Source: Methanofollis formosanus
GTDB lineage: Archaea > Halobacteriota > Methanomicrobia > Methanomicrobiales > Methanofollaceae
Assembly (NCBI RefSeq): GCF_019633745.1
Contig: NZ_CP037968.1
Span: 1,618,789-1,682,788, forward strand
Reading direction: 5' to 3'
Length of the DNA stretch: 64,000 nucleotides
Below, in pieces: positions 4,018 through 56,520 of the stretch. Under the pieces are notes generated by a model. The model saw nothing but the letters and a program-made list of their open reading frames with translations. It searched no databases and had not been told where the DNA came from. The translations under genes were made by a program, and so were the position numbers. How positions within the stretch are numbered: position 1 is the stretch's first letter; each line of letters begins with the position of its first letter.

Positions 4018-4189
4018 ACTTTTCCCCCCTCTGCGGGGGGAATACCATCCGGACGAGAAAAAGTTTTGGTTGTTTCCAGGCCTGACCGCTCCACTCGTGC
4101 ATTCTGTCATCCAGGCAAACAACCATTCTATCGTCCCCCGCCGCCTGTCACAAGGAGAAGGATCCGCCCACACGCTGGAGCGCTGCTCA

Positions 4190-4267: not shown

Positions 4268-5740
4268 CTAACCCGCCGGATCGAACTTAATCGCCCGGTC
4301 GTACACGATCTCATCGTAGGACGGCCCGGTGCTCGTCGCACTCTCCAGGTAGCCCCTCCAGGCAATGAAGATCGGCTGGTCCATCTCGATGCCGTAACTT
4401 CCTATACCGGAGGGAATCTCAAAGCAATTCGGCTCCCCCTCGCAATCCCTGGCGATCTTGTAGACATACAGGTATTTCGCGTTGGGATTGTCAGGGAGAT
4501 ACTCCTCGGCAGTACCGCTGAAATCCGCGTCGGTGACTGTTCCAACGCCGTTCCACACATCAGCTCCATATACGGCGAAGCTCGAGTACGTCGCCTTGCC
4601 CGTGGCGACGTGGTTGACCCCATAGACGATGATGAATTCGTTCGTATCGTTCCCGAGGGTGATCGGCGGGTTTCGCAGGAAGTCATAGTACTGCGTGGTG
4701 TCGAAGAAGGGCGGCGTCGGCGAATTGACAGCCTGGTTCGCGGTCCAGAGATACATTGCATCGTTGCTGGGCCCAACGGCATCGATCCCCCGCTGGATCG
4801 CGTCAATCCCTGTCGGGACTCCCTGGGCCGTCGGAAGCTCGGTGGCTTTCAGATCGCTGTACCTCTCAAGGATCGCATTTCGAAGTTCGTCGAGATCGTC
4901 CGTAAGGTCAAGCTCCGTCTCCCCGGTTCCCTTGACCCGCAGTTCTGGATAACCATACGGATCGAGTTCGGCCGTGGTGTTGGGCGTCAGGCGGAAGACA
5001 GTCGCCGGAGTGTTGTTGATGTAATCGTCGCCGGCCTCCTTGTCGGTGAAGAGCGCCGGGCGGATAAATACGGCGAACGTATCTGAGTCATTTTCGAAGC
5101 CCATGTTCAGGATGGATGAGGGAAACACCTGGGTGTTCATCATGCCGTCTGAATATCCTGCCGATCGGGCGGCGGCACGGACGCGCTCGTCAATGCCCCG
5201 GTCAGCCGTGGCGACGATCATCGTCGTCCGGTTGTACGGGTCTCCCGGGGTTCCGTTCGTGTTGATGACCTGGTTGTTGAGCGAGTCGGCGATGTTGGCA
5301 AAGAGCCACCGGGCCTCAGTTCCGTACGTCCTGCCCAGGAGGTAATTCTCGTAGCCGAAGTACCTGCACTCCGGCGGCGTTTGTCCTACGAAGACCACAG
5401 CTTCGTCGGGACCGAGATGCCAGAATGCAGATGTGTTCCCGCTCATTCCAAGTGTTTTCGTTATCTCTGCTATCCGTTCGTCGACCGTACCACCGAGTGC
5501 CGGCGGAACGAAGTATGCCAGATACTTTGTCGCCGGATTGTTTCCATATGCGGAAGGCAGCACCCCCGAATCATAGAGCTTGATGAGATCGAAATACCCG
5601 ATCTCGCCTTCCTGCACGATGAACCCGTCCTCTTCCAACGCTTTCTGGAACGCGTCCACGTCACCGGTTTCTCCAGTCTGTGCAAGGCCGTGCCCTACCA
5701 GCATGGCCACGAGTACTGCAAAGATGATGTACCGTCTCAA
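4268..5740 (-). CDS. secreted protein of unknown function, paralogue 2
   Basis: This 490-residue exported protein is colinear with the preceding paralogue and identical over long stretches. It has the same TTG start after a GGGGGAAGAG ribosome-binding site, the same signal peptide (RRYIIFAVLVAMLVGHGLAQ) and the same FVGQTPPECRYFGY segment and cysteine pattern. Most substitutions are scattered single residues. This suggests an old tandem duplication held under selection, or kept similar by gene conversion. The function is unknown. Its promoter region faces the cytosine deaminase gene, transcribed in the opposite direction. Confidence 0.75.
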   Translation of the reverse strand: MRRYIIFAVLVAMLVGHGLAQTGETGDVDAFQKALEEDGFIVQEGEIGYFDLIKLYDSGVLPSAYGNNPATKYLAYFVPPALGGTVDERIAEITKTLGMSGNTSAFWHLGPDEAVVFVGQTPPECRYFGYENYLLGRTYGTEARWLFANIADSLNNQVINTNGTPGDPYNRTTMIVATADRGIDERVRAAARSAGYSDGMMNTQVFPSSILNMGFENDSDTFAVFIRPALFTDKEAGDDYINNTPATVFRLTPNTTAELDPYGYPELRVKGTGETELDLTDDLDELRNAILERYSDLKATELPTAQGVPTGIDAIQRGIDAVGPSNDAMYLWTANQAVNSPTPPFFDTTQYYDFLRNPPITLGNDTNEFIIVYGVNHVATGKATYSSFAVYGADVWNGVGTVTDADFSGTAEEYLPDNPNAKYLYVYKIARDCEGEPNCFEIPSGIGSYGIEMDQPIFIAWRGYLESATSTGPSYDEIVYDRAIKFDPAG

Positions 5741-5885
5741 ACTCTTCCCCCCTCTGCGGGTGGAATACCATCCGGGCGAGAAAAAGTTTTGGTTGCTTCC
5801 CTGCCCGACCGCTCTACCCCCGCAATTTCGGCGACCGGAATGTTCATGAGCCGCCACGCACTCTCTCTATCCGGGTGTTGCTTTA

Positions 5886-6326
5886 ATGGATGAATTCATG
5901 CAGGCCGCCATCGAAGAGGCCAGAAAGGGACTGAACGAAGGCGGGATCCCCATCGGCTCGGTGCTGGTGATCGACGGTACGATCGTCGGTCGGGGACACA
6001 ACCGCAGGGTGCAGAAGGGCAGCGCCATTCTACACGCCGAGATGGACTGCCTGGAAAATGCGGGCCGGCTCAAGCCGGGGGATTACCGCCGGGCGGTGCT
6101 GTACTCGACGCTTTCCCCCTGCGACATGTGCAGCGGTGCAGTCCTCCTCTACAAAATCCCCCGCGTCGTGATCGGCGAAAACCGAACCTTCCAGGGACCT
6201 GAGGAGTATCTCCGAACCCGGGGCGTCGAAGTGGCCGTCCTGGACGACGAAGGGTGCAGGCGTCTGATGTCGGAGTTCATTGCCGCCAATCCCGAGGTGT
6301 GGGACGAGGATATCGGGGAGGAGTAG
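5886..6326 (+). CDS. cytosine deaminase of the yeast Fcy1 type
   Basis: The 146-residue zinc deaminase should convert cytosine to uracil plus ammonia for pyrimidine salvage in the cytoplasm. Catalytic residues are visible: His50 and Glu52 in LHAEMD, and Cys79 and Cys82 in PCDMC. Unlike generic nucleoside deaminases, it follows yeast cytosine deaminase along its length. Shared features are the GGIPIG start, RGHNRR, QKGSA, a TLSPCDMCSGA active-site stretch, GENRTF (Phe102) and a C-terminal lid with Trp139 and Asp142 in VWDEDIGEE, matching yeast Trp152/Asp155. Specificity for free cytosine is inferred from these residues. No strong ribosome-binding site precedes the ATG; Met5 is an alternative start. 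Confidence 0.88.
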   Translation: MDEFMQAAIEEARKGLNEGGIPIGSVLVIDGTIVGRGHNRRVQKGSAILHAEMDCLENAGRLKPGDYRRAVLYSTLSPCDMCSGAVLLYKIPRVVIGENRTFQGPEEYLRTRGVEVAVLDDEGCRRLMSEFIAANPEVWDEDIGEE

Positions 6327-6331
6327 AGGAG

Positions 6332-7294
6332 TCATATCTTCTCGGACGAGAGGGGCATATCCGCTCCCGCGGTCTCGTCCAGATAGACTCCCGCACCAAG
6401 CCACCAGGTCTCGTCGACATTCCGAACATAACTCATTTTGGGCTCAACGGACATATTGTCGACCGGATCAGGGTAGTGATAGTAGACGAACCCGCCCCCC
6501 TGTTGGGCCAGGAAGATCTCAATCCTGGTGTAGTTGACCCCATAAGGATCCTGGAGACCGGAGAGATCGGTTCCGATCAGATGGGGCTGATGGGGGAGCG
6601 CCAGGGTCGTCCCGTTATAATCGAAGGCATAGATGTAGAGGTTGCCGCGGACGAACGTGCCGTTCGGATCGTTGAACTCCGAGATCGCGGCATCCTTCCC
6701 ATGTTCCACAGAATACGCGATCGCCTCCGCGACAAAGGATTTGAGGCTCTCTCTCACCAGGGGATCGCCGCCCACGCTCACGATCGGATCGTCTTCCCCG
6801 GGATCGTAGATGCCTGAGCCGATGAACCAGTCCTGATCCACCGGCATGACATAGCTGAGTTTGGGTTTCACGGTGAAGTTGTCCGAGGGATCCACGTATT
6901 GATACCGGGCAAACCCTCCGTCAGCCTCTGCCGTCTCGATCATCTCCCGGATAAATGCGGTGCCGTTTGCATCGGTTGCATTCCGGCGGTTCTCCCCGAT
7001 GAGGTCAGGCTGGAAGGGGAGGGCCAGGGTGTTCCCCTCGAAGTCGTAGGCGAAGATATAGCGTTCACCTTCCACGAATCTCCCGCTCTGGTTGTTGAAC
7101 TCGCGGAGAGCGGCCTCCCGTCCGTTTACTTGTGCATACTCGTAGGCTTTCTCGACGAATGCCACCAGTTCCGCGGGAGAATCGGAACCCGGCGTCGGCG
7201 GATTACAGTCCAGCGAAGCGGTATCGGTGCACCCGGCAACCAGGAGGGGGGCAGAGATGAGTGCGAGAAGAATGAGGATCGTTTGCGGTCTCAT
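6332..7294 (-). CDS. lipoprotein with two Cache sensor domains
   Basis: The 320-residue protein starts at the Met encoded at 7294. A hydrophobic signal peptide ends in a lipobox (LLVAGC, Cys22), so the mature protein should be lipid-anchored outside the membrane. Two homologous single-Cache domains follow (about residues 38-165 and 185-310). Each has the hallmarks FN(N/D)..G.FV.G..YI.A.D, LALP.QP.LIG and PKxSYV..VD..W..G.G.Y. Cache domains of this kind bind small ligands such as organic acids or amino acids. With no kinase or methyl-accepting part attached, this is probably a substrate-binding or accessory sensor protein. A TATA box about 25 bases upstream of the start suggests a leaderless transcript. 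Confidence 0.8.
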   Translation of the reverse strand: MRPQTILILLALISAPLLVAGCTDTASLDCNPPTPGSDSPAELVAFVEKAYEYAQVNGREAALREFNNQSGRFVEGERYIFAYDFEGNTLALPFQPDLIGENRRNATDANGTAFIREMIETAEADGGFARYQYVDPSDNFTVKPKLSYVMPVDQDWFIGSGIYDPGEDDPIVSVGGDPLVRESLKSFVAEAIAYSVEHGKDAAISEFNDPNGTFVRGNLYIYAFDYNGTTLALPHQPHLIGTDLSGLQDPYGVNYTRIEIFLAQQGGGFVYYHYPDPVDNMSVEPKMSYVRNVDETWWLGAGVYLDETAGADMPLSSEKI

Positions 7295-7314
7295 GCAGAG
7301 GGATTGGCATATCA

Positions 7315-7322
7315 CATATAAA
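7315..7322 (-). promoter_or_regulatory. TATA box for the Cache lipoprotein gene
   Basis: TTTATATG on the minus strand is centred about 25 bases before the ATG at 7294. This is the spacing of an archaeal TATA box to the transcription start, which would then fall at the start codon. No ribosome-binding site lies between them, consistent with a leaderless mRNA. Confidence 0.5.
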
Positions 7323-7577
7323 ACGATAAGAATGATCTGCTCGCGTCTCCCGACTTCACCGGCTCCACACGGGAACCGCCGGTGCGGGCGGTCTACCATG
7401 CACGAACAGCATCATCATCTCCCTTTCCACACCCTTGTCGGTGCGACACTCCCGGCATTCTCCTGCCAGACGTACGTCTGCCCTGCCACATACACGAGGA
7501 TGCGTATCCGTTCCTCCATCTTGAAGAGTTCGCTTCATCCTGTTTCTCTCATGGTGTTTCCGATTCGTGAACGGAAT

Positions 7578-7594
7578 GTTTCCGTTTCGGAAAC
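7578..7594. repeat. perfect inverted repeat GTTTCCG-TTT-CGGAAAC
   Basis: A 7-bp perfect inverted repeat with a 3-base centre is preceded at 7556-7576 by a second, imperfect GTTTCCG...CGGAA pair. The cluster lies within 40 bases of the point where similarity to erythromycin esterase stops. It may be an operator, a recombination scar or part of a decayed element. Confidence 0.45.
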
Positions 7595-7610
7595 AAAAAG
7601 TTCTGATCAG

Positions 7611-7799
7611 GAAACCGTACACCTCCACCAGGTGCCAGAAGAGCCTGTTGCGGAGTATGAGAATCTCCTCGCCGCCGTGGAGTGCCTCTCCTAAACCAAG
7701 CAGTTCGATCGAGGGATCGAGCGAGGCGATGACTCTGTCGATGGAAACTTTGAAGGATTCGGGTGAATCGACGGAGAACGAAATCGCTTTGTCCCGGAT
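7611..7799 (-). pseudogene. remnant of an erythromycin-esterase-family gene (N-terminal part)
   Basis: Sixty-three codons on the minus strand read as the N-terminal region of the erythromycin esterase superfamily. DKAISF is followed by a spaced VIASLDPSIELLGLGEALHG segment, then RNRLFWHLVEVYGF. The usual family pattern is LGLGEATHG, then RHRLLRHLVEEHGF. A TAG immediately precedes the first codon and no start codon is usable. After VYGF the frame continues as unrelated Arg/Cys-rich sequence. Both ends are therefore lost and this is a gene fragment. The family includes hydrolases that open macrolide lactones, but most members are uncharacterised. Confidence 0.6.
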
Positions 7800-8525
7800 C
7801 TAGATGTCAAGTGCAACATGCATCATGACAGTAGGGGGGGGTTCACAGGCAACTTGGTTTCCATCCCCCGAATGCATGATCCCTATCATCGAGCGATGAG
7901 ATAAATGCTTGACTGCGATTGCTTCAGGCTGTACATGGCACTAAGAGCGGCCAGAAAAGGCAGCGACCCAAGGATAGTGGATGATTCTCACTCGGAGGTT
8001 CTTCTTTCAGCGCCCTGCGACATTCGCCATATCTTAGATCGGTTTCTTTTACCGACGGCCTTTGCATCGTCTTCACACAGCAGAGATCCTGAGTCAGATT
8101 TCAGCGAGCCAATCTTTCTTTTGTAATTTTTTGATAAATCAAAATTGGTTCCTGTTCTGATGCTCTTGATGAGCAGGCCTATAGATCAGCGACATGTTGG
8201 ATCAGATCTGTGCAGACACTCATGTACCATAAAAGAGGATAATATTCTCCTGCGCGTCATTTATATCTTCATTATTTTAGTTCCACCATTTTTGGTGGGC
8301 ATCTTCTCCGGTCCAAACAATTAGTCACCTGTTCATGCATCCGAAATCACGGGGGGATGGGGCGCACTCCAGACACTATATCATATCACAAAAAATGCGC
8401 TCCTTCGGGTATGGCAAGATCCCGATACTCCCATACATGGGACAAGACAGAAGAGTAGCATGAGAGTTAATTCGATGATATTATGTTAGCTGAAGAAAGA
8501 CATCGTTGCTTGAAGAGGATTTTCA
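7800..8525. other. gene-free, mixed-composition stretch before the AT-rich operon
   Basis: No gene is supported. Composition shifts from GC-rich to AT-rich across this stretch, with a T-tract near 8120-8135. It is the left boundary of the island and holds the promoter of the operon starting at 8526. I could not identify a confident TATA box or an attachment-site repeat. Confidence 0.4.
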
Positions 8526-10124
8526 GTGGATTATGCAATATGGAAGAGACATTCCGGATCTGAAGAACTCGTCTACGCCAAAGTTTTCGCAAATAACCCC
8601 TATCTGCCAAATAACGAGTTTTTATTTTGTCCTGCGTGTGGAGAACCCGTAATACTGGCAAATGGAGAGGAAAGAACCTATTTTAGACACTGTCCCAATA
8701 ATCCAAAAAACTACAGTTGCCCTAACTATTTAGATAGTGTATATGCAGTTCAATATCAGAGACAACAAGAGGAACGTAAATCAAGGCGACATTCAAAACG
8801 GATCTATATTTTGAAGAGAGGAGAAACCTTCGGACTTTTTCTCGGTTTTCCCAAATTAGAGGAGAAAACAGTTTTAGTTGCCAGAAATGAAAAACTCATA
8901 GTACGAATCATTAATCCAAACAACGCAGAACTCAAAGAGAACAGAATCCTCTTTAATCAGGTAATTCCAGGAGAAACTACTTACATCCAGTTAAAGTGGA
9001 TATATGACTATTATTCTCTCGAATACTACGAATCTTCAGTTAGCCAAGAGATTATTAAAAGCTGGGGAGAGGAGCAATCTGGACTTCCAGAAGAGGGAGC
9101 ACTGTTTAGATACAGTAAAAATTATGCTCGTTGTATATCCGGCAATGGAGAGATCACCACAGACAAATACTACTATTTTGCGACGGCCTTTGGAATATCA
9201 GACAACACTGGAGATTTTCTCGAATATGAGTATGTAGGGAAATTATGTGGGAAGACCATAGGATACGAATCAAAATGGATGGTCTACCGGGTGCAATTTA
9301 CCAAATTCACCAAAGAGGCCCTAGAATTTGCAGACAGTTTAGGGGTCACGCTTGTCGAGTGGCATCCCCCACTAATTCCCCTCTGGCCCCCCCATGTGCA
9401 GGTTGGAAATAGCCAAATCTACAGTAAACCAACAAATATCCTAAATCTGGCACAAACAGACACATCTTATTATCAGGAAACGGAAGGGCAATCTCGCAGA
9501 CTAATCCAAAAAATACCGAATAATGTAGGATGGTTGTTATGTCACCCTGTCAGGGCGCCTACGCACATCAAATCCTCTGATAGATCGTATGAGGCCTCCC
9601 TCACATGCGAATATCCCGAAGATATATCTCAGTACATCCACCCGGAAATAACCCTCGAGTACGCAAAAAAACCACTTGAAAATGGGGATTCCTTTTCACT
9701 CAAGGACAAGGCAAATTTGTTCTTCAAATCAGACTGTAGATGTGATATTTATCATTACTCAGAAAAACAACTGAAAAGTGTTTACTGGAATGAACAGGCC
9801 ATTCTTGGATTTCGAAACCTATCCGAGGGGGACAAGATTTGCGTACGCCATGGACTGGATACAGTCCATCAGGTAAGCATTCCAAAACGCATCCAGAAAA
9901 CGGTAAGATTCTCAGCAAAAAAAGACGAAGAAACGTATCAGGAACTCATTCTAATGGGAGGCACGTTTATATCGACCCCCGTGAAAGTGAAATATATTCT
10001 GAGCCATCTTGGAAAGTACCCTAAAGTCAGTAATTATCTCATCCAGACATTAAGATCTGGTAAAATTCCACAAAAAGCGTACGAGCATCTGATTTCTGAA
10101 TTCTATAAGGAGATTGAAAATTAA
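8526..10124 (+). CDS. CoiA-like zinc-finger protein, first gene of a putative defence operon
   Basis: The 532-residue protein opens with a probable zinc site: Cys35-Pro-Ala-Cys38 in FCPACGEP, then YFRHC (His55, Cys56) and Cys65. This arrangement, with a phenylalanine-arginine-histidine before the third ligand, resembles the N-terminal zinc module of CoiA-like competence proteins. I see no CoiA nuclease motif in the rest, which is mixed alpha/beta with many aromatics and unknown function. The start is GTG with GAAGAGG upstream. The stop codon overlaps the next start by one base (TAATG), so the two genes are coupled. AT-rich composition sets it apart from the host. I infer a nucleic-acid-binding or target-recognition role. 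Confidence 0.7.
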   Translation: MDYAIWKRHSGSEELVYAKVFANNPYLPNNEFLFCPACGEPVILANGEERTYFRHCPNNPKNYSCPNYLDSVYAVQYQRQQEERKSRRHSKRIYILKRGETFGLFLGFPKLEEKTVLVARNEKLIVRIINPNNAELKENRILFNQVIPGETTYIQLKWIYDYYSLEYYESSVSQEIIKSWGEEQSGLPEEGALFRYSKNYARCISGNGEITTDKYYYFATAFGISDNTGDFLEYEYVGKLCGKTIGYESKWMVYRVQFTKFTKEALEFADSLGVTLVEWHPPLIPLWPPHVQVGNSQIYSKPTNILNLAQTDTSYYQETEGQSRRLIQKIPNNVGWLLCHPVRAPTHIKSSDRSYEASLTCEYPEDISQYIHPEITLEYAKKPLENGDSFSLKDKANLFFKSDCRCDIYHYSEKQLKSVYWNEQAILGFRNLSEGDKICVRHGLDTVHQVSIPKRIQKTVRFSAKKDEETYQELILMGGTFISTPVKVKYILSHLGKYPKVSNYLIQTLRSGKIPQKAYEHLISEFYKEIEN

Positions 10125-12631
10125 TGGCAAATCCAAAAAAAGATTTCAATGTACGTTGCTGTATTGGGATTCCAATGAAGTTTGGCGACCATGACTTCAA
10201 AGTCTTGAGGATAGCAGATATTTCCACAAAAGAGTGGAGTAAAAAAGGTCGAGTAAATACTATAGGTACGATCTACACCAATCCAGACAACGGAAACATG
10301 CTCATTCCGATTAAATTAGAAGAAAACTCCGATCAATGGTGGCACGACAACTTAGGCATCTGGATGTGGAAAGAAAGTACCAATTCTGAGGCTTATGACG
10401 TAGCACCCTATTCGCATCATCCCAAACCCCCTTGCAAATATAATTATTACGAACTAATCTTTTTGCAGAATCCTGAAACTTCGCCAGAATCAATAGAAAA
10501 TATGAGAATAGTGAGGGATTCTGATGATGCACTCGCACAGATATTGGAAAAAGGTATCGTTGTCCCAGACACATTTTCAGAAAACCTCCTCGTAGTCTAT
10601 GATTGCGATGAAGATCATTACTTCTGTGTTGAGATAACAAAAGCAACATCTTGTCTACGATATAATGAATTACTTTTTGTAACCGATAGAAGATCATTGG
10701 ATCGATATAGAATCAAAAGAACAGACGTTATTGATTCATTTGATCCAGTATACAAAAATTCAATCCCAGATAACGGTTCAAACCTGACTCGAAGGTTCAT
10801 CTACAAAAAGATGAAATTCAGTCAACAGGATAAGTTAGAGACCCTGACCCTTCGTACTGATTCAACCCGCTTTGCAGGATATTTTTACCGCATTGCCTCT
10901 CGCCTGAATTACTCAGAGGATGAGAAGAAATTAGTGAACAGGATTGTCACCGAAGCCTTATCAAACCCAAAATTACAGCCTTCATTTATATTATCTCCAG
11001 AGATTAAGCAATGGCTTGAATTGCAAACTGACATAATAAATGCACATCTCAATACCGACGATAAAGTTGAGGGGTTTGTAAAAGGAGTTATTGAAAACGT
11101 CCCAAAGATCAACAAAAAATACATTAGTAAAATACAACATGTCGCAAACCAAGGATTATTCGAGCAAAAAGAATCTTTAGAGATAGAGATTGGCAATCTA
11201 AAGAATACAATCGATGAAATTAATGGTGAAATACTTGTAATTAATGCAGAGAAAACAGCTGAAACAGATGCATTAAAATCTCTCAAAAAAACTGTTGAAT
11301 CTGAAGGCGAGCGACTAAGATCTGACCAGGATAACCGCATAAAACAGGAACTCCAGAAGTACAAAGAAGATCAAAAAAAGATTGTTGATGAGGAAATTGC
11401 CTTATTAAAAAAAGAACAAATGCAGGTGATCACCAAAGAGGGTGAACAGTTTAGAGTTGATCAACAGAAATCCATCCAGAAAGATCTTGAGTCACTCCAT
11501 GAGGAAGCTCGCAAAATCCAGAAAGACATAGATTCATTAGAGATATCAAAGAAACAACTTGAGAAAGAGATTTCAGAGACTAAACACATTCAAGAAGAGT
11601 GCTCACGACTGGAACAAAAAAAACAAGATTTAGAAAAAATAAACGACCAATTAAAAACCTATTGTGAGCAGAAACTTAGGATTATACAGCATAATCCAGG
11701 GGACTTCCTTGGGGATCTAGCACTTTTTAAAGGAGTAATTCCATCTGGAGAGTGCGAGCAGACAAGTGTTGCTTCCTCGCCAAATTCAGGCCTGTTTGTT
11801 CAACCGGCAAAAGATTATGATAGATCAGATCTGCTTGAAAGTACTAATATCAAAGATCTGATTGATGATCTGAAGAACAATCTTCAGAACATTGGAGTTG
11901 ACGATGAATATGCTGAGAACCTAGCCAAACTCATTGCCGGGGCATATCTGACGAGAAAACCCCTACTCCTTACAGGATGTAAGGCAAATATCATGGCTAA
12001 TGCCATTTCAGTTACACTTCACTCACAAACACCAGAGGTTATTTCGGTTCCAACTGGCTACAACGACTATTCTTCACTGTTAAACGCTGTGAAAAACACC
12101 AGGGGTAATGTTGTTCTTCTTCAAAATGCCATCGGGTCCATTGACGAATACTGCTATACGCATCTCGCAAAGGACATTCTTAATGAGAAACCCGAAAAAT
12201 ACATCCTGTTCTCACTTGATTTCGCAGAAAATATGCGGATACTCCCCCCAAGTATACTAGGATACATGATCCTTCTCAATTCAGAAGACTTGATAACCTC
12301 CATTGCAACCGAGGCCTTGGATCCTGGGATTTGTACAGTAACTATTGAAAGAAATCCAAAGGAGGTCAAGGGCCTGTATCAAAGGGTGGTTAAGCTATCA
12401 AATGGACTTAATACAACAAATGGATACAATCTGACTAGAACTGCAATACTCTCTGTATTTATCGAAACGGATGAGGAAAAAGATGAAGAAAACGTGGAAG
12501 CGGTACTTCTTCTGGAGCTTGTCACCTATTGCAAATTATTAGGAGCCACAAATGAACTGAACCAGAGATTAGAACATCTTAGCAGAGAAAACCTCAAAAT
12601 AATCGTAAAGAAACTCCTTGGAGGAGAATAA
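10124..12631 (+). CDS. coiled-coil protein with a degenerate AAA-like ATPase region
   Basis: The 835-residue protein has three parts. An N-terminal region (about 1-340) of unknown fold is rich in Trp, Tyr and Asp. A long coiled coil covers about 340-525, dominated by Glu/Lys heptads. A C-terminal domain (about 590-760) resembles an AAA+ module. KPLLLTGCKANIMANAIS sits where a Walker A loop would be but lacks the Gly-Lys-Thr. VVLLQNAIGSIDEY resembles Walker B. FAENMRILPPSILGYMI resembles the sensor/pore region of McrB- or MoxR-like ATPases. It may bind but not hydrolyse ATP, or be a structural scaffold. It is coupled to both neighbours by overlapping or adjacent starts. Confidence 0.7.
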   Translation: MANPKKDFNVRCCIGIPMKFGDHDFKVLRIADISTKEWSKKGRVNTIGTIYTNPDNGNMLIPIKLEENSDQWWHDNLGIWMWKESTNSEAYDVAPYSHHPKPPCKYNYYELIFLQNPETSPESIENMRIVRDSDDALAQILEKGIVVPDTFSENLLVVYDCDEDHYFCVEITKATSCLRYNELLFVTDRRSLDRYRIKRTDVIDSFDPVYKNSIPDNGSNLTRRFIYKKMKFSQQDKLETLTLRTDSTRFAGYFYRIASRLNYSEDEKKLVNRIVTEALSNPKLQPSFILSPEIKQWLELQTDIINAHLNTDDKVEGFVKGVIENVPKINKKYISKIQHVANQGLFEQKESLEIEIGNLKNTIDEINGEILVINAEKTAETDALKSLKKTVESEGERLRSDQDNRIKQELQKYKEDQKKIVDEEIALLKKEQMQVITKEGEQFRVDQQKSIQKDLESLHEEARKIQKDIDSLEISKKQLEKEISETKHIQEECSRLEQKKQDLEKINDQLKTYCEQKLRIIQHNPGDFLGDLALFKGVIPSGECEQTSVASSPNSGLFVQPAKDYDRSDLLESTNIKDLIDDLKNNLQNIGVDDEYAENLAKLIAGAYLTRKPLLLTGCKANIMANAISVTLHSQTPEVISVPTGYNDYSSLLNAVKNTRGNVVLLQNAIGSIDEYCYTHLAKDILNEKPEKYILFSLDFAENMRILPPSILGYMILLNSEDLITSIATEALDPGICTVTIERNPKEVKGLYQRVVKLSNGLNTTNGYNLTRTAILSVFIETDEEKDEENVEAVLLLELVTYCKLLGATNELNQRLEHLSRENLKIIVKKLLGGE

Positions 12632-12635
12632 ATCC

Positions 12636-13676
12636 ATGGAACATTATCCCCATGAAATTATGGCGCAAGGACTGGGGATATACCACTTTTCCTGTGAAGA
12701 CAAAAATGCCTATATTGCCCGTGTTCTTTACTCCGCGATTTCAGAATGGATAAAAACAGCAGTTTTAGATCGGAATATTGAGGATAATAGTGCATGTCAA
12801 GATACAAGAGATACACTATACACAAAACATCATGTAACCAGAAAATGCAATATAATCCTTTCTGCCTATTTAGATCTCTATCCAGATGTCAGAAAATGGT
12901 TTTATCCAGAGGATAAACCAGATTTTCAGCCAGCTAAAAAAATCCAGGAAAGACTAGAATACTCTGGATTCCTTGTCCCCGGACCAGAAAACACTATTCA
13001 GTTACCCCCCGATAAATTCGCAAGAATTGCCGAGGATTTGTTTTTACTCCGTGGAACATCATTCGGAAAAGATGGAGAGATACATGGGTTAGGATGGTAC
13101 GTCAATAGGATTTCTGAAAAGGATGTGTACTCGCTAGAAGAACTTTTTTTGATACCAAAAATAGATGCAAAAGACACCGTTCTTGATTATAGTAGATATG
13201 CTGATGGGAAATATACACCAAACATTGTCATATCTGATGTTCGAAGATATTTCGACCCACTTTCAAAGCGAATCTTCTCTGATTCCTGGGAACAATCTCT
13301 GCACCATCGCTGGGAACTAACAGTGTATCGAAATAACCTTGCCGACTATGGGATTGCTAAAAACGAAAATGGAAAGATATATGCCCTCTCATTTCCGGAT
13401 AACGCTGTAAAAACACGTGAATTTCGCAGATTCATGTATGGTCTTCGACATTTAAATCATAATCCAGAACAGGCCACAATAACGACCTACAAAGACGCAA
13501 TCAAAATCAAATTACATTCAACTCTACCAGGGAGAGAGGAAATGTTACTCTACATGATAGCTTGGCCGGTTCGAAACATTCTCGACAGAACCGAATTTAT
13601 TACATCGCCTGTTTTCTTCCCAATCATTACAAAACTTCTGGAAAATCTGAACATTCGGGTGATACAAAATGGCTGA
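12636..13676 (+). CDS. protein of unknown function, third gene of the putative defence operon
   Basis: I do not recognise this 346-residue protein. The ATG at 12636 follows a perfect GGAGGAG ribosome-binding site inside the end of the preceding gene, so I chose it over an in-frame TTG at 12618. The protein is soluble, rich in aromatic and charged residues, with no membrane segment, cysteine cluster or nucleotide-binding motif. The segment KPDFQPAKKIQERLEYSGFL (about residues 95-114) could belong to a helical DNA- or protein-binding domain. Its last 8 bases overlap the start of the helicase gene. It probably forms a complex with the other three products. Confidence 0.6.
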   Translation: MEHYPHEIMAQGLGIYHFSCEDKNAYIARVLYSAISEWIKTAVLDRNIEDNSACQDTRDTLYTKHHVTRKCNIILSAYLDLYPDVRKWFYPEDKPDFQPAKKIQERLEYSGFLVPGPENTIQLPPDKFARIAEDLFLLRGTSFGKDGEIHGLGWYVNRISEKDVYSLEELFLIPKIDAKDTVLDYSRYADGKYTPNIVISDVRRYFDPLSKRIFSDSWEQSLHHRWELTVYRNNLADYGIAKNENGKIYALSFPDNAVKTREFRRFMYGLRHLNHNPEQATITTYKDAIKIKLHSTLPGREEMLLYMIAWPVRNILDRTEFITSPVFFPIITKLLENLNIRVIQNG

Positions 13677-16600
13677 ATATAGTGTTCAACATATACACCA
13701 TGAACTTGTTGGAAAATTGAAGGACTACATTCAAGCACAATACTTTGGTGAGAACGATCTTCTTTTGAGCGCATCAACAGACCTTTTAGATGAAAAAGAC
13801 TCAATCTACAAAGATCCCTACATCGAATCGAACCAGACATATGAGATATCAAAAGAAGGGTTAATTAATGCCGATATTCCCCAAAATATCAAAGACTTCT
13901 TTTCTCAAATGAGCACCAAACATTTAGGGGTTTTCAAAGATCCCTATAGTCACCAAGTTAAAGCACTTGAAGAGTTTTACCAAGGGAATGACATTTTGGT
14001 GACGACAGGCACAGGTTCTGGAAAAACAGAGTGTTTCATGTGGCCCCTTGTCGCAAATCTTGCAACTGAAGCAAAAACACATCCTGAGTCATGGAACAAA
14101 AGGGGCATTAGGGCGTTGCTACTCTACCCCATGAATGCATTGGTCGCAGATCAGATCGGCCGTTTGCGGAAAATGATCGGGGACTACGATGGAGAGTTTC
14201 ATACACTTTTTACAGAGTATACTGGTTTCACAAATACACGCACCCCCCAATTTGGAATGTACACGGGTAGGACACCATATCCCGGCGAACCCATAAAAAG
14301 AAAGAATATAGAACTGGCAAAAACGCTGGAACGCGATCTGATCGACCGTAGCCCCGAGTTGATCGCGGAACTCAAATCAATGGGGAAGTACCCCTCAAAA
14401 TATGATCTAAAAACCTATACTGAAAATCTAAAAAAAGGGATTCATCAACCTGCTCTACGGGATGCAGAATTAATCACCCGTAAGGAGATGCAGGATTATT
14501 GTCCTGACATTCTCGTCACAAATTACTCAATGCTCCAATACATGCTGATTCGGCATATCGAACAGCCATTCTGGACAAACACAAAGGATTGGTTAAACGA
14601 ATCTCCAGAGAACAAGCTCCTGATAGTCATCGATGAAGCACATATGTATCGGGGATCCGCAGGGGGAGAGGTAGCTCTCCTCATCCGTCGGCTATTGTAC
14701 AAGTTAGGAATAACACGCGACAAAGTACGGTTTATCCTCACCAGCGCCAGTATTCCAGTTGAAAACGAGGTAAAGAAAATCAAACTAAAACAATATCTTC
14801 GAGAGATCACTTCATCCGAGAAGGACACGTTCTCAATAATTATTGGAACCAATAAAAAGATTGATCTCCCAAATCCCGTTGAATTCTCCGCAAACAAGAT
14901 AAGTAATTTCCCCTTAGATGATTTCCAGCTTGATGATACAAGAAAAACACTAGCAGTCCACAGATTCTTCCAAGAACTTGACGGGACAAGACCACCATAT
15001 AATAGTATCAAGGAATTGGAAGCATGGTTATTTGAAACATTGCCTAAATACAGTCCAGTACAGCGGATAATAAACCAAACCGCTGGAAACGCCACCCGAA
15101 TCACTGAAATTGCAAGGATTGTTTTCCCAGATGACGATCCCAAAACTGCACTTTCTGCAACACAGGTTCTTCTATCGCTACTACCACTTGCCAAAAAAGA
15201 CAGGCAGGTCCTCTTCCCTGCAAGACTTCACATGTTTTTCCGTGGCCTACAAGGACTTTACGCATGTACAAATCCAAAATGTCCGAAAAAACACACCGGA
15301 GACGGTATAACTCTCGGTGAGATATACTCAGACAGTGGACTGGACACCTGTCCTCATTGTCATGGGAAAATCTATGAGTTGATCAATGATAGAAGATGTG
15401 GAGCCCTATTCATCAAAGGATATTTCCTTAATGCGGGGGATTTCGAGGGAAAGAATTATCTCTGGCGCACTCATGGAGAGATATTTGGAAACGAATTGAA
15501 GGAAGTACATCTCTACATCGTCCCACAGAATAATCATAGAAAAAATGAACAAATACGATATGGATGGCTCGATGCAAAGACCGGTTTCATCCATTTCAAC
15601 AACATTCATGACAGAGAGGATGGATTCTTAGAAGTCTGTTACTCTCTTAAGCCAGTAAAAGGAAAGCCAGAGCAGTTAACATTTAGCCAATGTCCAAAAT
15701 GTGGAAAACCGCTGAGTTACTACTCTTTTTCTGATTTCTCAACAAAGGGAAACGAGCCATTTTACAATATTGTTTCATCACAATTGTCTGTCCAACCACC
15801 TGCAATATTTGACGAAGAAAAACTTAAGCAACAGCCAAATGCCGGAAGGAAAGTCCTTGTATTCTCAGACAGCAGACAAAGAGCCGCGGTACTTGCCAAA
15901 GATATGACCCGGACAGCAGACGATCAGGCTGCAAGAGCGGTTTTAGTTCTGGCGGCCAACCATTTACAGCAATGGGCTGAAACCACAGGGAGTGCTGTAA
16001 CGCTTGATATGCTCTATCCTGCATTTTTGGAGATTGCAGACCAAAATCACTTACGTCTATTCTATGGAGGGGATAAGACCCTCTTTAATGAAGATCTGGG
16101 AAAAATCAAACGTACTATTGAAAAAGCAAAAAGACGGGAGATATCAGTAAGATATGATAGAATCATTAGCGATTACAAGAACAAACCCGGACTATTTTCT
16201 GAACAACTCCTGAAAAATCTCTGCTCGCCTTTCAGGTCTTTGACAGACCTCGGGCTTGGTTGGATTGAACCCTGTGATAAATATGATATCGTAGAGTGTC
16301 TTGAATCATTTGGGGAACATGATATCAAGATGCTTGAAGAAGAGTTTATTCCCCTCTTCGCTGCTTGGGCATATTATCATTGTACAAACTCATTTGCTAT
16401 TGGAAATCAGATTTCGAATCAAATACGGTTCAATATCGCTCTTCGTAAATACGATAGGTTTGGTGTAGAAGAGAAAGACTTACAGAAAATACCATCCAAA
16501 TTCAAAAAAATTCTAGAGCAGAAATATACTCAGGAACAGATTGATTGGATTGTTTTCATACTTTCTGAAACATTCCTGGGTCGCGGAAGTGGCGAGGAAG

Positions 16601-18996
16601 GGAACAGGTATTACCTAATTCTAGATAAAATAGCATTAAAATTCAAGGAGAAACATAGGTGGTATCGTTGCAGAACGTGTTCCAATATTTTCCCATATAC
16701 TCTGCTCGGGAAATGTGCACATTGTGGTTCATCTGATGTCTATGAAATGAGTGATGGGGATCTAGAACGGTACAAATTCTGGAGAGATCCCGTTCTCGAT
16801 GCAATCAAGAGAGATTCTGAAAATCCGATACATACCATCAATACAGAAGAACATACAGCACAACTATCCTACAAAGATCAGCGAGACGACATATGGTCCA
16901 CGACAGAAAATTACGAGATGCGGTTCCAGAACCTTGTCTTGGACGATGAACTCCCAATTGATGTGTTGAGTTGTACAACAACGATGGAGGTAGGTATTGA
17001 TATCGGTTCTCTGACAGCCATCAGCCTTCGGAATGTTCCACCAATGCGAGAGAACTACCAACAGAGAGCAGGACGTGCCGGAAGACGCGGAACATCAATA
17101 TCAACAATCGTAACCTATGCCCAGAACGGCCCCCATGATGGTTGGTACTTCAATCACCCTGAGAAAATTATTTCAGGGGATGCCAGCAGCCCATGGATTG
17201 ATGTAGACAATATCAAACTCATTCAGCGTCATGTGAATATGCTCGTCTTAAGTGAGTATTTGAGTGAAAAAGGGACGGATTTATATGAATGCCCACTATT
17301 ATCATTCTTCGATAACTATTATAACGAGTTTGTAGAGTTTCTGAAAACATTTCGGTTCAAACCAGAACTCGAAGTAACAATTCTTTCTGCTAAAAAAACA
17401 GATGAAAATTCTCATCAAAAATTATTACTGAGGCTCAAAAATAAATTAGAGGAAATCCGGGAGGACGTGTTCAAAAACCGCGACCTGTATGATGGCAGGG
17501 CTGAAAAAGAACAAACAAACAGTCTTCTGGATCACTTGAGTTTTGAAGGGATCTTACCAACCTACTCATTCCCACAAAATGTTGTAGGTTTCTACATTGA
17601 AGAACGATCGGGAAATAAGATTATCCAAAGACCAGACCGTTCACTTGATATCGCTATTAGTGAATATGCCCCAGGAAAAGTAATTGTTGTAAACAAAGAA
17701 ACCTACAAAGTCGGTGGGATCTACAGTTTCCATTCGAAGTTCAGAAGAGGCAATCAGCCTGAAAATCAGGCACGACCATACTTTGATGATCCTAATTATC
17801 TGTCCGATTTATATCTCTGTCCAAACCCAGAATGTGGCTGGACTGATACAAGATATCCACTGGGAGGGAGGTGCCCCTTCTGTGGAGAACCTATTTCTGA
17901 GGATAGGAAAAAGAAGATGCTCCGACCATGGGGTTTTGCTCCTGTAGATGGAAAGCCGATCCCTGAAGCACATGCAGAGATTGAACAGTCATATGCAGAG
18001 GAACCATGCTATTTTGCAACGCCTGACCGCAATGACATGAAGGATATTGGATGCAAGCATATTATGGCCGCGGTCCGTTCTGATAAGATCAGGATCATCA
18101 ACAAGGGCGTTAAGGGACATGGATTTAATGTATGTCAGAAGTGCGGTGCTGCAGAAGTTGCAGAACAAACTACTGATGATGAATCCAAAGATAAACCTTT
18201 GAGAGATATCGGCCGACCATACTCTTTCCGTGGTGTGAATTCAAAGTGTACTCATGACCCGGTAAATGTGTATCTCGGTCACACATTTGCAACAGATATG
18301 ATTGTTTTTGAGTTTGAGTTGGACAAATCCAAAATAAACACTGAATTCCCCGGGATGTGGATTTCAAGCGCCGCGACAACACTCACTGAGGCGTTCTTAC
18401 TTGCTGCAAGCCGTACTCTGGACGTTGATTTCAATGACATTAAAGGGGGTCACAGAATTCACGGAACAGAAGATACAACATTTGTTGATATTTACATCTA
18501 TGATAGTCTGTCAAGCGGAGCGGGATATGCCACTGGCCTTTGGAACATGATTGGTCCGCTACTCCAGAGTGTTCAGGATGTCCTAAAATGTGGGAACAAA
18601 GAATGTGAAACAGCATGTCACTCATGCCTCAAACATTATTGGAACCAGAGAGTGCATGAGAAATTGGATCGTCTTGCAGCCCTTGATCTCCTGAACTGGG
18701 GCAGATATGCTGACCTTCCTACACCCTTGAGCATCGATAGACAATATCAGATTATCGCCCCACTCAAACATTTGCTTGCTGATGCTCATCCAGAGATTAA
18801 ATTACCCACCGATCAAGGGAACATGTCAGTGATTTTACCGAAAAAATCAATCAAATTCGTGGTGTATCCTGCGATGCGGGTTCTATCGGAGATGGAGGAT
18901 AGCACCATATATTTGTCAGATAAGTTGGTAAAAAATGCACTTCCAAAAGCCTTTGAGGAGGCCAATAAGTTCATAAAACATTTCCTGAAAGACTAG
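13669..18996 (+). CDS. giant DEAH-box superfamily 2 helicase with zinc clusters and a DUF1998-like C-terminus
   Basis: The 1775-residue ATP-dependent helicase/translocase has TGTGSGKTE (Walker A, about 113-121), VIDEAH (about 320), LTSAS (motif III), and a second RecA domain with VFSDSRQRA, TTTMEVGIDIG (about 1106-1116) and QRAGRAGRRG (about 1131-1141). Extra CxxC pairs (CPHC, CPKC, CRTC with CAHC, CPFC, CQKC) suggest several zinc ribbons inserted in the chain. The end (about 1640-1670) has the four-cysteine CxxxxCxxxCxxC pattern of the DUF1998/MZB region seen in MrfA, DISARM DrmA and Druantia DruE. In those systems the helicase is the core antiviral motor. It is AT-rich and ends the operon. 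A T-rich stretch just after the stop may terminate transcription. Confidence 0.85.
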   Translation: MAEYSVQHIHHELVGKLKDYIQAQYFGENDLLLSASTDLLDEKDSIYKDPYIESNQTYEISKEGLINADIPQNIKDFFSQMSTKHLGVFKDPYSHQVKALEEFYQGNDILVTTGTGSGKTECFMWPLVANLATEAKTHPESWNKRGIRALLLYPMNALVADQIGRLRKMIGDYDGEFHTLFTEYTGFTNTRTPQFGMYTGRTPYPGEPIKRKNIELAKTLERDLIDRSPELIAELKSMGKYPSKYDLKTYTENLKKGIHQPALRDAELITRKEMQDYCPDILVTNYSMLQYMLIRHIEQPFWTNTKDWLNESPENKLLIVIDEAHMYRGSAGGEVALLIRRLLYKLGITRDKVRFILTSASIPVENEVKKIKLKQYLREITSSEKDTFSIIIGTNKKIDLPNPVEFSANKISNFPLDDFQLDDTRKTLAVHRFFQELDGTRPPYNSIKELEAWLFETLPKYSPVQRIINQTAGNATRITEIARIVFPDDDPKTALSATQVLLSLLPLAKKDRQVLFPARLHMFFRGLQGLYACTNPKCPKKHTGDGITLGEIYSDSGLDTCPHCHGKIYELINDRRCGALFIKGYFLNAGDFEGKNYLWRTHGEIFGNELKEVHLYIVPQNNHRKNEQIRYGWLDAKTGFIHFNNIHDREDGFLEVCYSLKPVKGKPEQLTFSQCPKCGKPLSYYSFSDFSTKGNEPFYNIVSSQLSVQPPAIFDEEKLKQQPNAGRKVLVFSDSRQRAAVLAKDMTRTADDQAARAVLVLAANHLQQWAETTGSAVTLDMLYPAFLEIADQNHLRLFYGGDKTLFNEDLGKIKRTIEKAKRREISVRYDRIISDYKNKPGLFSEQLLKNLCSPFRSLTDLGLGWIEPCDKYDIVECLESFGEHDIKMLEEEFIPLFAAWAYYHCTNSFAIGNQISNQIRFNIALRKYDRFGVEEKDLQKIPSKFKKILEQKYTQEQIDWIVFILSETFLGRGSGEEGNRYYLILDKIALKFKEKHRWYRCRTCSNIFPYTLLGKCAHCGSSDVYEMSDGDLERYKFWRDPVLDAIKRDSENPIHTINTEEHTAQLSYKDQRDDIWSTTENYEMRFQNLVLDDELPIDVLSCTTTMEVGIDIGSLTAISLRNVPPMRENYQQRAGRAGRRGTSISTIVTYAQNGPHDGWYFNHPEKIISGDASSPWIDVDNIKLIQRHVNMLVLSEYLSEKGTDLYECPLLSFFDNYYNEFVEFLKTFRFKPELEVTILSAKKTDENSHQKLLLRLKNKLEEIREDVFKNRDLYDGRAEKEQTNSLLDHLSFEGILPTYSFPQNVVGFYIEERSGNKIIQRPDRSLDIAISEYAPGKVIVVNKETYKVGGIYSFHSKFRRGNQPENQARPYFDDPNYLSDLYLCPNPECGWTDTRYPLGGRCPFCGEPISEDRKKKMLRPWGFAPVDGKPIPEAHAEIEQSYAEEPCYFATPDRNDMKDIGCKHIMAAVRSDKIRIINKGVKGHGFNVCQKCGAAEVAEQTTDDESKDKPLRDIGRPYSFRGVNSKCTHDPVNVYLGHTFATDMIVFEFELDKSKINTEFPGMWISSAATTLTEAFLLAASRTLDVDFNDIKGGHRIHGTEDTTFVDIYIYDSLSSGAGYATGLWNMIGPLLQSVQDVLKCGNKECETACHSCLKHYWNQRVHEKLDRLAALDLLNWGRYADLPTPLSIDRQYQIIAPLKHLLADAHPEIKLPTDQGNMSVILPKKSIKFVVYPAMRVLSEMEDSTIYLSDKLVKNALPKAFEEANKFIKHFLKD

Positions 18997-19332
18997 AGGC
19001 ATCAAAAAATTATTATTTTTCCAGTTCTGCAAAAACTATCCTCACATTTTTGCATAGTGTGTCACTCCCAGTTAGGATCCTATCCAAGGAGTTCAAGAAA
19101 GTTAATGCCTTGAGGTAGTCCCCCAGCAGACGATACAGGGAGGACAGGAGATCCGCGATCCCTTCATTGGATCAGGAAGATTAGCCTCTCCAGTTCTCAT
19201 GCCTCCACCATGCAGAAGCGACGACAATGCACATCGCACACACTGCTCAACACAAACAATCCATTCACGAAGAAAAAGAGAAACCCCACCCACCCCGAAA
19301 AAAAATAGTATCGGGAAGATTATCCTGAGACC
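18997..19332. other. gene-free right boundary of the AT-rich island
   Basis: A T-rich stretch at about 19005-19022 could end the operon transcript. An A-tract near 19300-19310 gives T-residues on the other strand for the convergent glutamine synthetase gene. I see no integrase, tRNA or obvious direct repeat. Confidence 0.4.
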
Positions 19333-20838
19333 TTACGCGACGTGCATGAAGCGGTCGACCAGTTCCGCGATCGCTTCCTTGTCGCCGTAGAGTTTCTCGC
19401 TGAGACCCTTGTCCTCATAGGCCTTGAGCGACGCCACCCTGCTGTCGATCATGCCGGCAGGGAAGATCGCATTCTCCTCGAAGATCGCACGCTTGGCATC
19501 GAGAGCCTCGGCCGACTCCCAGCAGGAGGCCGGGAGCTGTTCGAGCTGGTCCAGGCGGTCGCGGTACTCCGGCTTGAAGATGTTCACATCGACATAGAGC
19601 TTCTTCGCCAGTTCGAGAGCGTCGGGCATGTTGATACCGCGCAGCGAGGTGACGATGAGACCGGCGATCATCAGGTACGGATCGGCCGAGCCGTCGGGCA
19701 CCCTGAACTCGATCGTCTGCTTGGACGGGCGCTCAGCCTTTAGGCCGCGGTCGTACGGGTTGGCGTCCTGCGTCATGTGCTGGGCGCCGACCCAGCCTAG
19801 GGGCACGCGGACCACGACGGAGCGGTTGCGGTCGCCCCAGCAGATGTTGGTGGGCGCCTCCTGGTGCGGCACGAGCCTGAGGTACGAGGTCGGGATGGTG
19901 TCGCCGAAAGCGGTCAGGGCGTCGGCGGCATCGAGGATACCGGCGATCATCTTCCTGGCGAGCGGGCTCAACTTCCCCTCCTCGACCATCAGGTTCTGGC
20001 CGTCCTTCTCGACGAGCATGTGGAAGTGCATCCCGCTCCCTGCCTTGCCGACGGTGATCTTCGGGGCAAAGCTGATCTCGACGCCGTACTGGTACCCGAG
20101 CATCCGGAGGATCCACTTCGCGATGATCAGCTGCTCCGCGGCCTCCTCGACCGGCATGGGCAGGAACTCGATCTCGTGCTGCTCGAAGTACTGGTCCTCG
20201 GTGCTGAAGCACCCGACCTCGGAGTGGCCGTACTTGATCTTACCGCCGGCCTTGGCGATCAACCGCAGCGCCTCGGTCCGCAGGTCTTCGAACTTGGCGA
20301 AGGGTGCGGCGGTGTGGTAGCCCTTCTGGTCGAGACCGGGGTAGAGCTCCTCACGCTCGCTGATCACATAGTACTCCAGTTCGCCGAGGGTCTTGAAGAC
20401 GCCGCCGGTCTGCCTGGTGAACTCCTCGTTCGCCTTGCGCAGGACATACCCCGGAGCGCTCTCCAGCGGCTTGCCCTCGTAGTCATAGTACGAACAGAGG
20501 ATCTCGAGCGTCGGCACCTCGGTAAACGGATTGACGAAGGCGGTGCGGTAGCGCGGGATCACGTACAGGTCGCTGCTCCCCGCTTCGATGAACGAGAAGA
20601 TGTTGCTCCCGTCGACCCGCTCGCCGTCGGAGAGGATGGCGTCGAGATGCTCCTTCGAAGAGATGATAAAGTTGAGCGTCTTGAGCTTGCCGTCCTCCGC
20701 GGCATAGCGGAAATTCACCATCTCGATACCGTTTTCATAGCAAAAACGAATAATATCGTCTTTGGTAAATTCTGACGACGGCTTCTTGAGGAAGCGGACG
20801 AGGTCGTTTGGATTCATCAAGATCTCAGAGTCTTTCAT
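19333..20838 (-). CDS. glnA: glutamine synthetase
   Basis: This 501-residue protein should make glutamine from glutamate, ammonia and ATP in the cytoplasm. Recognisable parts are an N-terminal beta-grasp with NFRYAAEDG, the GELEYYV metal-site strand, GSGMHFHMLV (metal and substrate site), the NRSVVVRVP ATP-binding segment and EFRVPDGSADPYLMIAGL near the C-terminus. It is about 50 residues longer than a typical archaeal GSI-alpha. I cannot see the GSI-beta adenylylation tyrosine context, and a relative with another amine acceptor is possible. Promoter sequence lies in the long AT-richer spacer upstream. Confidence 0.88.
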   Translation of the reverse strand: MKDSEILMNPNDLVRFLKKPSSEFTKDDIIRFCYENGIEMVNFRYAAEDGKLKTLNFIISSKEHLDAILSDGERVDGSNIFSFIEAGSSDLYVIPRYRTAFVNPFTEVPTLEILCSYYDYEGKPLESAPGYVLRKANEEFTRQTGGVFKTLGELEYYVISEREELYPGLDQKGYHTAAPFAKFEDLRTEALRLIAKAGGKIKYGHSEVGCFSTEDQYFEQHEIEFLPMPVEEAAEQLIIAKWILRMLGYQYGVEISFAPKITVGKAGSGMHFHMLVEKDGQNLMVEEGKLSPLARKMIAGILDAADALTAFGDTIPTSYLRLVPHQEAPTNICWGDRNRSVVVRVPLGWVGAQHMTQDANPYDRGLKAERPSKQTIEFRVPDGSADPYLMIAGLIVTSLRGINMPDALELAKKLYVDVNIFKPEYRDRLDQLEQLPASCWESAEALDAKRAIFEENAIFPAGMIDSRVASLKAYEDKGLSEKLYGDKEAIAELVDRFMHVA

Positions 20839-56094: not shown

Positions 56095-56520
56095 TCTTCA
56101 TGAGTATTCGGCATGAACCCCGAACTCAAGCATACGCTATTGGATATTGTTCCAGACAGCACTTCAGAGTTTTGGGGGATCCTCCCCCTCAAAACAGGGC
56201 AAAAGAGAGTATCATGTTTCATCGCCGCCCCTCGGCAATCTTCGTCCGTGGGAGGTCTGGAGGGCAGAGCCCCCGGCATGAAGATGTGAGAAGGTGTGAT
56301 GATCAGGCGTGCCGCCCAGATTGTAGAATCTTCATCCCCATCTCGCACCCTCCGGACCCCCACGACGAAGATAGTCAGGGAGCGGCAATGAAGTGGCGGT
56401 CCCATCTGGTGTCCCCCTCTGAAGAGGGAACAAGGATCCACTCACCAGAGACCTCCAAGAATTTTCATCGCGTATGCTTGAGCCTGGAGTTCATACCCAA
56501 TTCTACAGAGCCCAAAAATG
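56095..56520. repeat. dispersed element with both arms, between the glycosyltransferase and the giant PKD/CBM gene
   Basis: The left arm at 56101-56150 and the inverted right arm at 56457-56520 bracket two hairpin halves facing each other (GCCGCCCC near 56224; GGAGCGGC near 56381). The right arm carries the T-tract on the minus strand and overlaps the last codons and stop of the giant gene. Confidence 0.65.

Follow-up and report, generated by a model that had tools for sequence, protein, structure and literature searches.

The four genes at positions 8526 to 18996 of the window, the 64,000-nucleotide stretch of the Methanofollis formosanus genome (a single contig of 2.97 Mb) that we analysed, are best read as a horizontally acquired druBCDE operon of the Druantia type I kind that lacks druA and serves in defence, a reading to which we assign a probability of about 0.8 from sequence comparisons. 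The operon is real, conserved, mobile and very probably defensive; it is an archaeal representative of a DruA-less branch of Druantia I that is widespread and has been little described. The definition of type I Druantia comprises five genes, and because DruA, one of the published components, was searched for and is absent, we do not file the window operon as type I proper. The operon comprises the following genes:

8526-10124, + strand, druB homologue, 532 aa, GTG start
10124-12631, + strand, druC homologue, 835 aa
12636-13676, + strand, druD homologue, 346 aa from the ATG at 12636 (352 aa if from the TTG at 12618)
13669-18996, + strand, druE, 1775 aa, YprA-family SF2 helicase

A sequence-only reading of this DNA had described four co-directional, linked and AT-rich genes, and each part of that description holds. 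The druB and druC frames overlap by 1 base and the druD and druE frames by 8 bases, and a GGAGG ribosome-binding site at about 12620 precedes the ATG at 12636, which is more likely to be the druD start than the listed TTG at 12618; initiation at this ATG yields a protein close in length to the E. coli DruD (347 aa). The GC content of the four genes is 0.38-0.42, and GC3 values of 0.34-0.40 stand against 0.71-0.88 in the adjacent genes.

The last gene was correctly recognised as encoding a DruE-like DEAH helicase with a DUF1998/MZB module. DEAD, Helicase_C and MZB domains were found in a single chain that also carries extra zinc ribbons and the four-cysteine MZB/DUF1998 cluster, and the protein matches the PADLOC model DruE1 with 1950.6 bits over residues 2-1770 of 1775, as opposed to at most 649 bits for DruE2-4, 79 for DpdJ and 41 for DrmA. 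It shares 32% identity with the annotated E. coli DruE, and solved structures related to it (9tu7 and 9wae) score about 260 bits. The helicase motifs are invariant in an alignment of ten archaeal homologues, and no intact or conserved nuclease motif is seen in the C-terminal alignment of these archaeal proteins. For types I and II, an inactivated nuclease is predicted in DruE (PMC12458937), and the type III DruE is a helicase with a preference for 3'-tailed DNA that engages intermediates containing single-stranded DNA (PMC13192584). A search of viral contigs with the E. coli DruE yielded no relative. Positions 7301-10843 of MT836687.1 encode a DruE-like stretch with 41% identity to the window DruE; this 11.8 kb scaffold from human faeces is labelled 'Bacteriophage sp.' and carries no annotation, and it could be either bacterial DNA under a wrong label or a phage with Druantia genes.

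Weak matches to DrmA, DpdJ and BrxHI, which arise through shared helicase domains, might suggest that the operon belongs to DISARM, ARMADA or Dpd. The gap between the DruE1 score and those of DpdJ and DrmA, together with a gene content in which helicase and MZB share one chain and a second helicase is missing, rules this identity out and leaves it with a negligible probability. The separate DrmA and DrmB, methylase and PLD nuclease that characterise DISARM are not found among the four products; that neither a methylase nor a phospholipase D is present had been noted from the sequence.

The partners of the helicase had been thought not to fit Druantia, and the operon had on these grounds been proposed as a new antiviral system akin to Druantia by its helicase alone. 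We built profiles of DruB, DruC and DruD from 59-63 homologues and compared them with the proteins of the annotated druABCDE operon of E. coli strain 165. DruD is recognised directly over its full length by the PADLOC model DruD1 (E=2.8e-33), and its profile matches the E. coli DruD with E=6.6e-8 over 288 columns, most of the length of the protein. A PDB sequence search with the same profile returned chance-level matches only and no recognised relative.

DruC consists of a long coiled coil (about 290-535) followed by a C-terminal AAA+ fold without Walker A, which bears out the earlier description of a coiled-coil protein with a degenerate AAA domain. It matches PADLOC DruC1 with E=1.3e-8, and the profile of 59 homologues matches the E. 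coli DruC with E=2e-7 over 100 columns. In the AlphaFold2 model (mean pLDDT 73), the coiled coil is long and the C-terminal domain is predicted well; the best match of this domain is the MoxR-type ATPase 2r44 (Z 12.3, rmsd 4.3, 233 residues), followed by RavA (3nbx, Z 11.8) and then MCM proteins; McrB itself is not among the fold matches listed. The Walker A motif (GK[ST]) is missing in all 59 homologues and in the E. coli DruC. Druantia types I and II are predicted to encode an inactivated McrB-like GTPase (PMC12458937).

DruB is composed of a CoiA-like zinc finger, a middle domain, an Ig-like beta-sandwich region (about 279-459) and C-terminal helices. The finger, which had been regarded as foreign to Druantia, is real: its residues C35, C38, H55 and C65 are the same in all 62 homologues, although the window protein itself matches the Pfam family only with E=6.5e-4, under the Pfam cut-off. 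The E. coli DruB matches CoiA_N with E=1.9e-8, and the finger is therefore a feature of Druantia and not the mark of a different system. As a single sequence, the window DruB matches PADLOC DruB1 below significance (E=0.052), and the profile of the 62 homologues matches the E. coli DruB with E=2.6e-8 over residues 29-292; the case for homology is confined to the N-terminal half and to profile comparison. In the AlphaFold2 model (pLDDT 82), residues 279-459 resemble Ig/FN3-like folds with best Z values of about 6-7, and since these values are middling we take the likeness as one of fold class and not of kinship. Nuclease folds do not appear among the fold matches listed for DruB, which are Ig/FN3-like sandwiches only, although the protein may still contain one; PDB sequence searches with the DruB profile gave chance-level matches only. 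The best single PADLOC model detects 11 of the 62 DruB homologues and 17 of the 59 DruC homologues.

These matches leave the claim of a new system with a very slight probability. In its favour are the non-significant PADLOC score of the window DruB and the fact that none of the four products resembles DruA; against it, DruC, DruD and DruE match described Druantia components directly, DruB does so by profile, and the partners correspond to the E. coli DruB, DruC and DruD in the same order. The sequence-only reading had named a confident match of all four proteins to a described system as what would overturn its claim of novelty, and such matches were obtained directly for three of them and for DruB by profile only. 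Its remark that no DruA-D-like product is in view survives for DruA and fails for the three partners.

The four genes travel together. DruD was found in 10 of 393 genomes of the phylum, the window's own counted, and in all 10 of them B, C, D and E are adjacent and in the same order. A scan of GTDB species genomes with a DruE alignment yielded 80 named loci, mostly from Bacillota, which together with the nine other archaeal loci make 89 (L018 and L024, two of these, seem to come from the same genome). In 78 of the 89 loci, all four genes were recovered by profile searches, with the order BCDE on one strand in 76 loci and a rearranged order in two (L082 and L087), and the remaining 11 start too near a contig end to hold four genes. 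Every locus with enough sequence, in other words, has the complete set, and because all incomplete loci are cut by contig ends, none contradicts the four-gene unit or provides a helicase devoid of the other three genes. The earlier proposal of a functional unit is supported, and the arrangement is more than chance, since its order is kept in the nine other archaeal genomes and in 76 of 78 complete loci. A search of plasmids with DruD found nothing.

DruA (DUF4338, PF14236) is missing throughout this branch. It was found in none of the 10 whole archaeal carrier genomes, in a search whose positive control, a P. putida plasmid, scored 5.8e-82, and in none of the 89 loci, for which the E. coli and P. 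putida DruA proteins served as queries and recovered their own loci as controls. Genes of about 400 aa upstream of druB in Bacillota were considered as DruA candidates and rejected, as they encode C5 cytosine methyltransferases. Type I loci with DruA are those of E. coli, P. putida, Nitrosococcus and haloarchaeal plasmids; in the latter, a DruE operon is accompanied by a divergently transcribed DruA (L108, 3377-14418, and L109, 3376-14418), and its partners are annotated merely as hypothetical. In a FastTree of 92 DruE proteins, five DruA-bearing and 87 DruA-less sequences lie on opposite sides of a starred branch, a split that is provisional given a quick, unrooted tree with long branches and a DruA-plus set of five. 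The Methanomicrobiales form one group adjoining a Bacillota group, and the named carriers nearest to the window DruE are Methanogenium and Methanofollis.

This distribution bears on whether the window holds a decayed, inactive type I operon from which druA was lost. The published type I set of five genes does include druA, which is missing here, but all four frames are intact and conserved, DruA is lacking from every one of the 89 related loci, and the DruA-bearing DruE proteins form a separate clade, so that we consider decay highly improbable. The uniform absence of DruA means instead that its absence is old and that the set has been kept without it.

Comparison with congeners delimits the block that carries the operon and the genes on either side of it:

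8179-19161, no strand assigned, cassette, a block of about 11 kb that holds the four genes and short flanks only
5886-6326, + strand, left flank, deaminase gene (Pfam dCMP_cyt_deam_1), orthologue close to glnA both in carriers and in genomes with an empty site
19333-20838, - strand, right flank, glutamine-synthetase-like gene (glnA), orthologues at the same site in congeners, named from inspection of the sequence

In blastn comparisons with the window, the loci L015, L016 and L136 each give one 11.0 kb match of 86-87%, and the same 11.0 kb block lies between the deaminase and glnA genes in the congeners G387, G291 and G394. Three other congeners have no cassette in this gap, which measures 998 bases in G154, 468 in G393 and 1169 in G396; G154 is a close relative, with 95 and 98% protein identity in the flanking genes. 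Within the genus, the interval between deaminase and glnA is a hotspot of insertion, with the cassette in four genomes and without it in three. Base composition, empty sites in close relatives and the DruE tree all speak for the horizontal acquisition that had been suggested from AT-richness. No repeats of at least 10 bases were found in common between the cassette ends, and the cassette holds no integrase; movement by recombination between the flanks is possible.

The scan of ten flanking frames recognised no known defence gene. The surroundings include an Imm5-like putative immunity protein (1195-1752; 4.4e-43), tandem paralogues of 542 and 529 aa that belong to no Pfam family (2548-4173 and 4271-5857) and, between the deaminase gene and the cassette, a Cache-type sensor-domain protein (6335-7399) that is missing at the same place in the congeners compared. 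A very long frame of 2479 aa spans 56465-63904.

In Bacillota, a further element is found ahead of the operon. More than 2.5 kb of sequence precedes druB in 68 loci. In 13 of these, a C5 cytosine methyltransferase gene lies upstream on the same strand within 1 kb, and 12 of the 13 also carry a type II endonuclease gene, the end of which is 16-51 bases ahead of druB; only the endonuclease is seen in another two loci, which are truncated at contig ends (the slot is seen in L030-L036, L039-L043 and L083, and also in L037 and L045). The endonucleases belong to two unrelated families, seven being EcoO109I-like and seven Eco47II-like. Each of the two main slot-bearing DruE subclades contains both families, a pattern suggestive of exchange at a single site and not of one inherited pair. 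Elsewhere in these loci, a methyltransferase matching the same model occurs only once, downstream in L101. The archaeal loci have no such slot, and a C5 methylase was found nowhere in the genome in 6 of 11 archaeal carriers searched, so that C5 methylation is no general requirement. Methyltransferase and endonuclease may form a restriction-modification module of the Druantia operon. The slot with its two unrelated endonucleases ties the system in Bacillota to DNA methylation (see also the 2026 review PMC12904381, citing Ojima et al.).

The association with restriction-modification genes also weighs on the reading of the operon as a DNA repair or processing unit built around an MrfA/YprA-type helicase. 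Such a role could be drawn from the YprA family, which includes repair helicases as well (PMC12458937), and from flanks devoid of recognised defence genes. By its family scores, however, the window DruE lies nearer to the DruE types than to MrfA, and patchy presence, foreign composition and empty sites likewise point away from repair, which we regard as improbable.

An antiviral role is likely by homology, and the window operon very probably works like type I, although a set without DruA, part of the published type I definition, may not act as type I does. Our literature search found no described mechanism for type I Druantia. Protein homology, gene order, the lack of DruA, the motif states and the mobility of the cassette are shown by our data, and we infer antiviral activity, complex formation and the order of events in what follows. 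By homology with type III DruE, the YprA-family SF2 protein DruE would be the motor, a helicase or translocase, and DruB, DruC and DruD would make up the sensing and loading part that steers it to invading or replicating viral DNA. DruC has an ATPase fold without the ATPase motif and is hence probably a scaffold or sensor that uses its coiled coil, and DruB and DruD would provide nucleic-acid recognition and assembly. DruE would then unwind or track along viral DNA at the expense of ATP, blocking replication or exposing the DNA to host nucleases. Since DruC lacks a P-loop and no intact nuclease motif is seen in the C-terminus of DruE or in the other operon proteins, unwinding is likelier than cleavage by the operon itself. 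A mechanism entirely free of nucleases is a tentative proposal, to which we give somewhat less than even odds; a nuclease function might be hidden in DruB or DruD, the folds of which are assigned in part.

A large natural branch in which B, C, D and E are always retained and A is always missing places DruA outside the indispensable core and offers four-gene systems in which this core can be studied alone. It is nearly an even chance, in our estimate, that druBCDE constitutes a subtype complete in itself and independent of DruA, with most of its members in Bacillota and Methanomicrobiales, and that an exchangeable restriction-modification pair ahead of druB supplies self/non-self discrimination or target cleavage in some lineages while the archaeal version works with the four proteins alone.

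Several known systems share parts of this design. With DISARM and ARMADA, the operon has in common a YprA-family helicase with a DUF1998 module and, in some of its Bacillota relatives, a linked DNA methyltransferase; it differs in lacking a PglX-like methylase, the BrxHII helicase and DrmC, and in that helicase and DUF1998 are unsplit. The DruE core helicase is shared with Druantia type III (DruH-DruE), whereas DruH is absent from the window operon; according to PMC12458937, the end of the type III DruE forms an active PLD-like nuclease, while the type I DruE is nuclease-dead. The name type IV CoCoNuT comes from the literature, where Bell et al. (2025; PMC12458937) gave it to Druantia with an inactivated McrB-like CnuB; the window operon resembles it in a long coiled coil and a Walker A-less AAA+ fold beside a DruE-type helicase, but the fold comparison of the window DruC supports an AAA+ of the MoxR/RavA/MCM kind, with McrB itself absent from the matches listed. 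The closest counterpart is Druantia type I (druABCDE; E. coli strain 165, NZ_CP020509), with which the operon shares DruE, DruD, the order B-C-D-E, a DruC with coiled coil and P-loop-less AAA-like region and a DruB with CoiA-like zinc finger, and from which it differs in that its branch has no DruA, forms a separate DruE clade and has DruB and DruC proteins diverged enough that PADLOC detects them poorly. The operon is best classed as a DruA-less sister variant of Druantia I and not as a new system.
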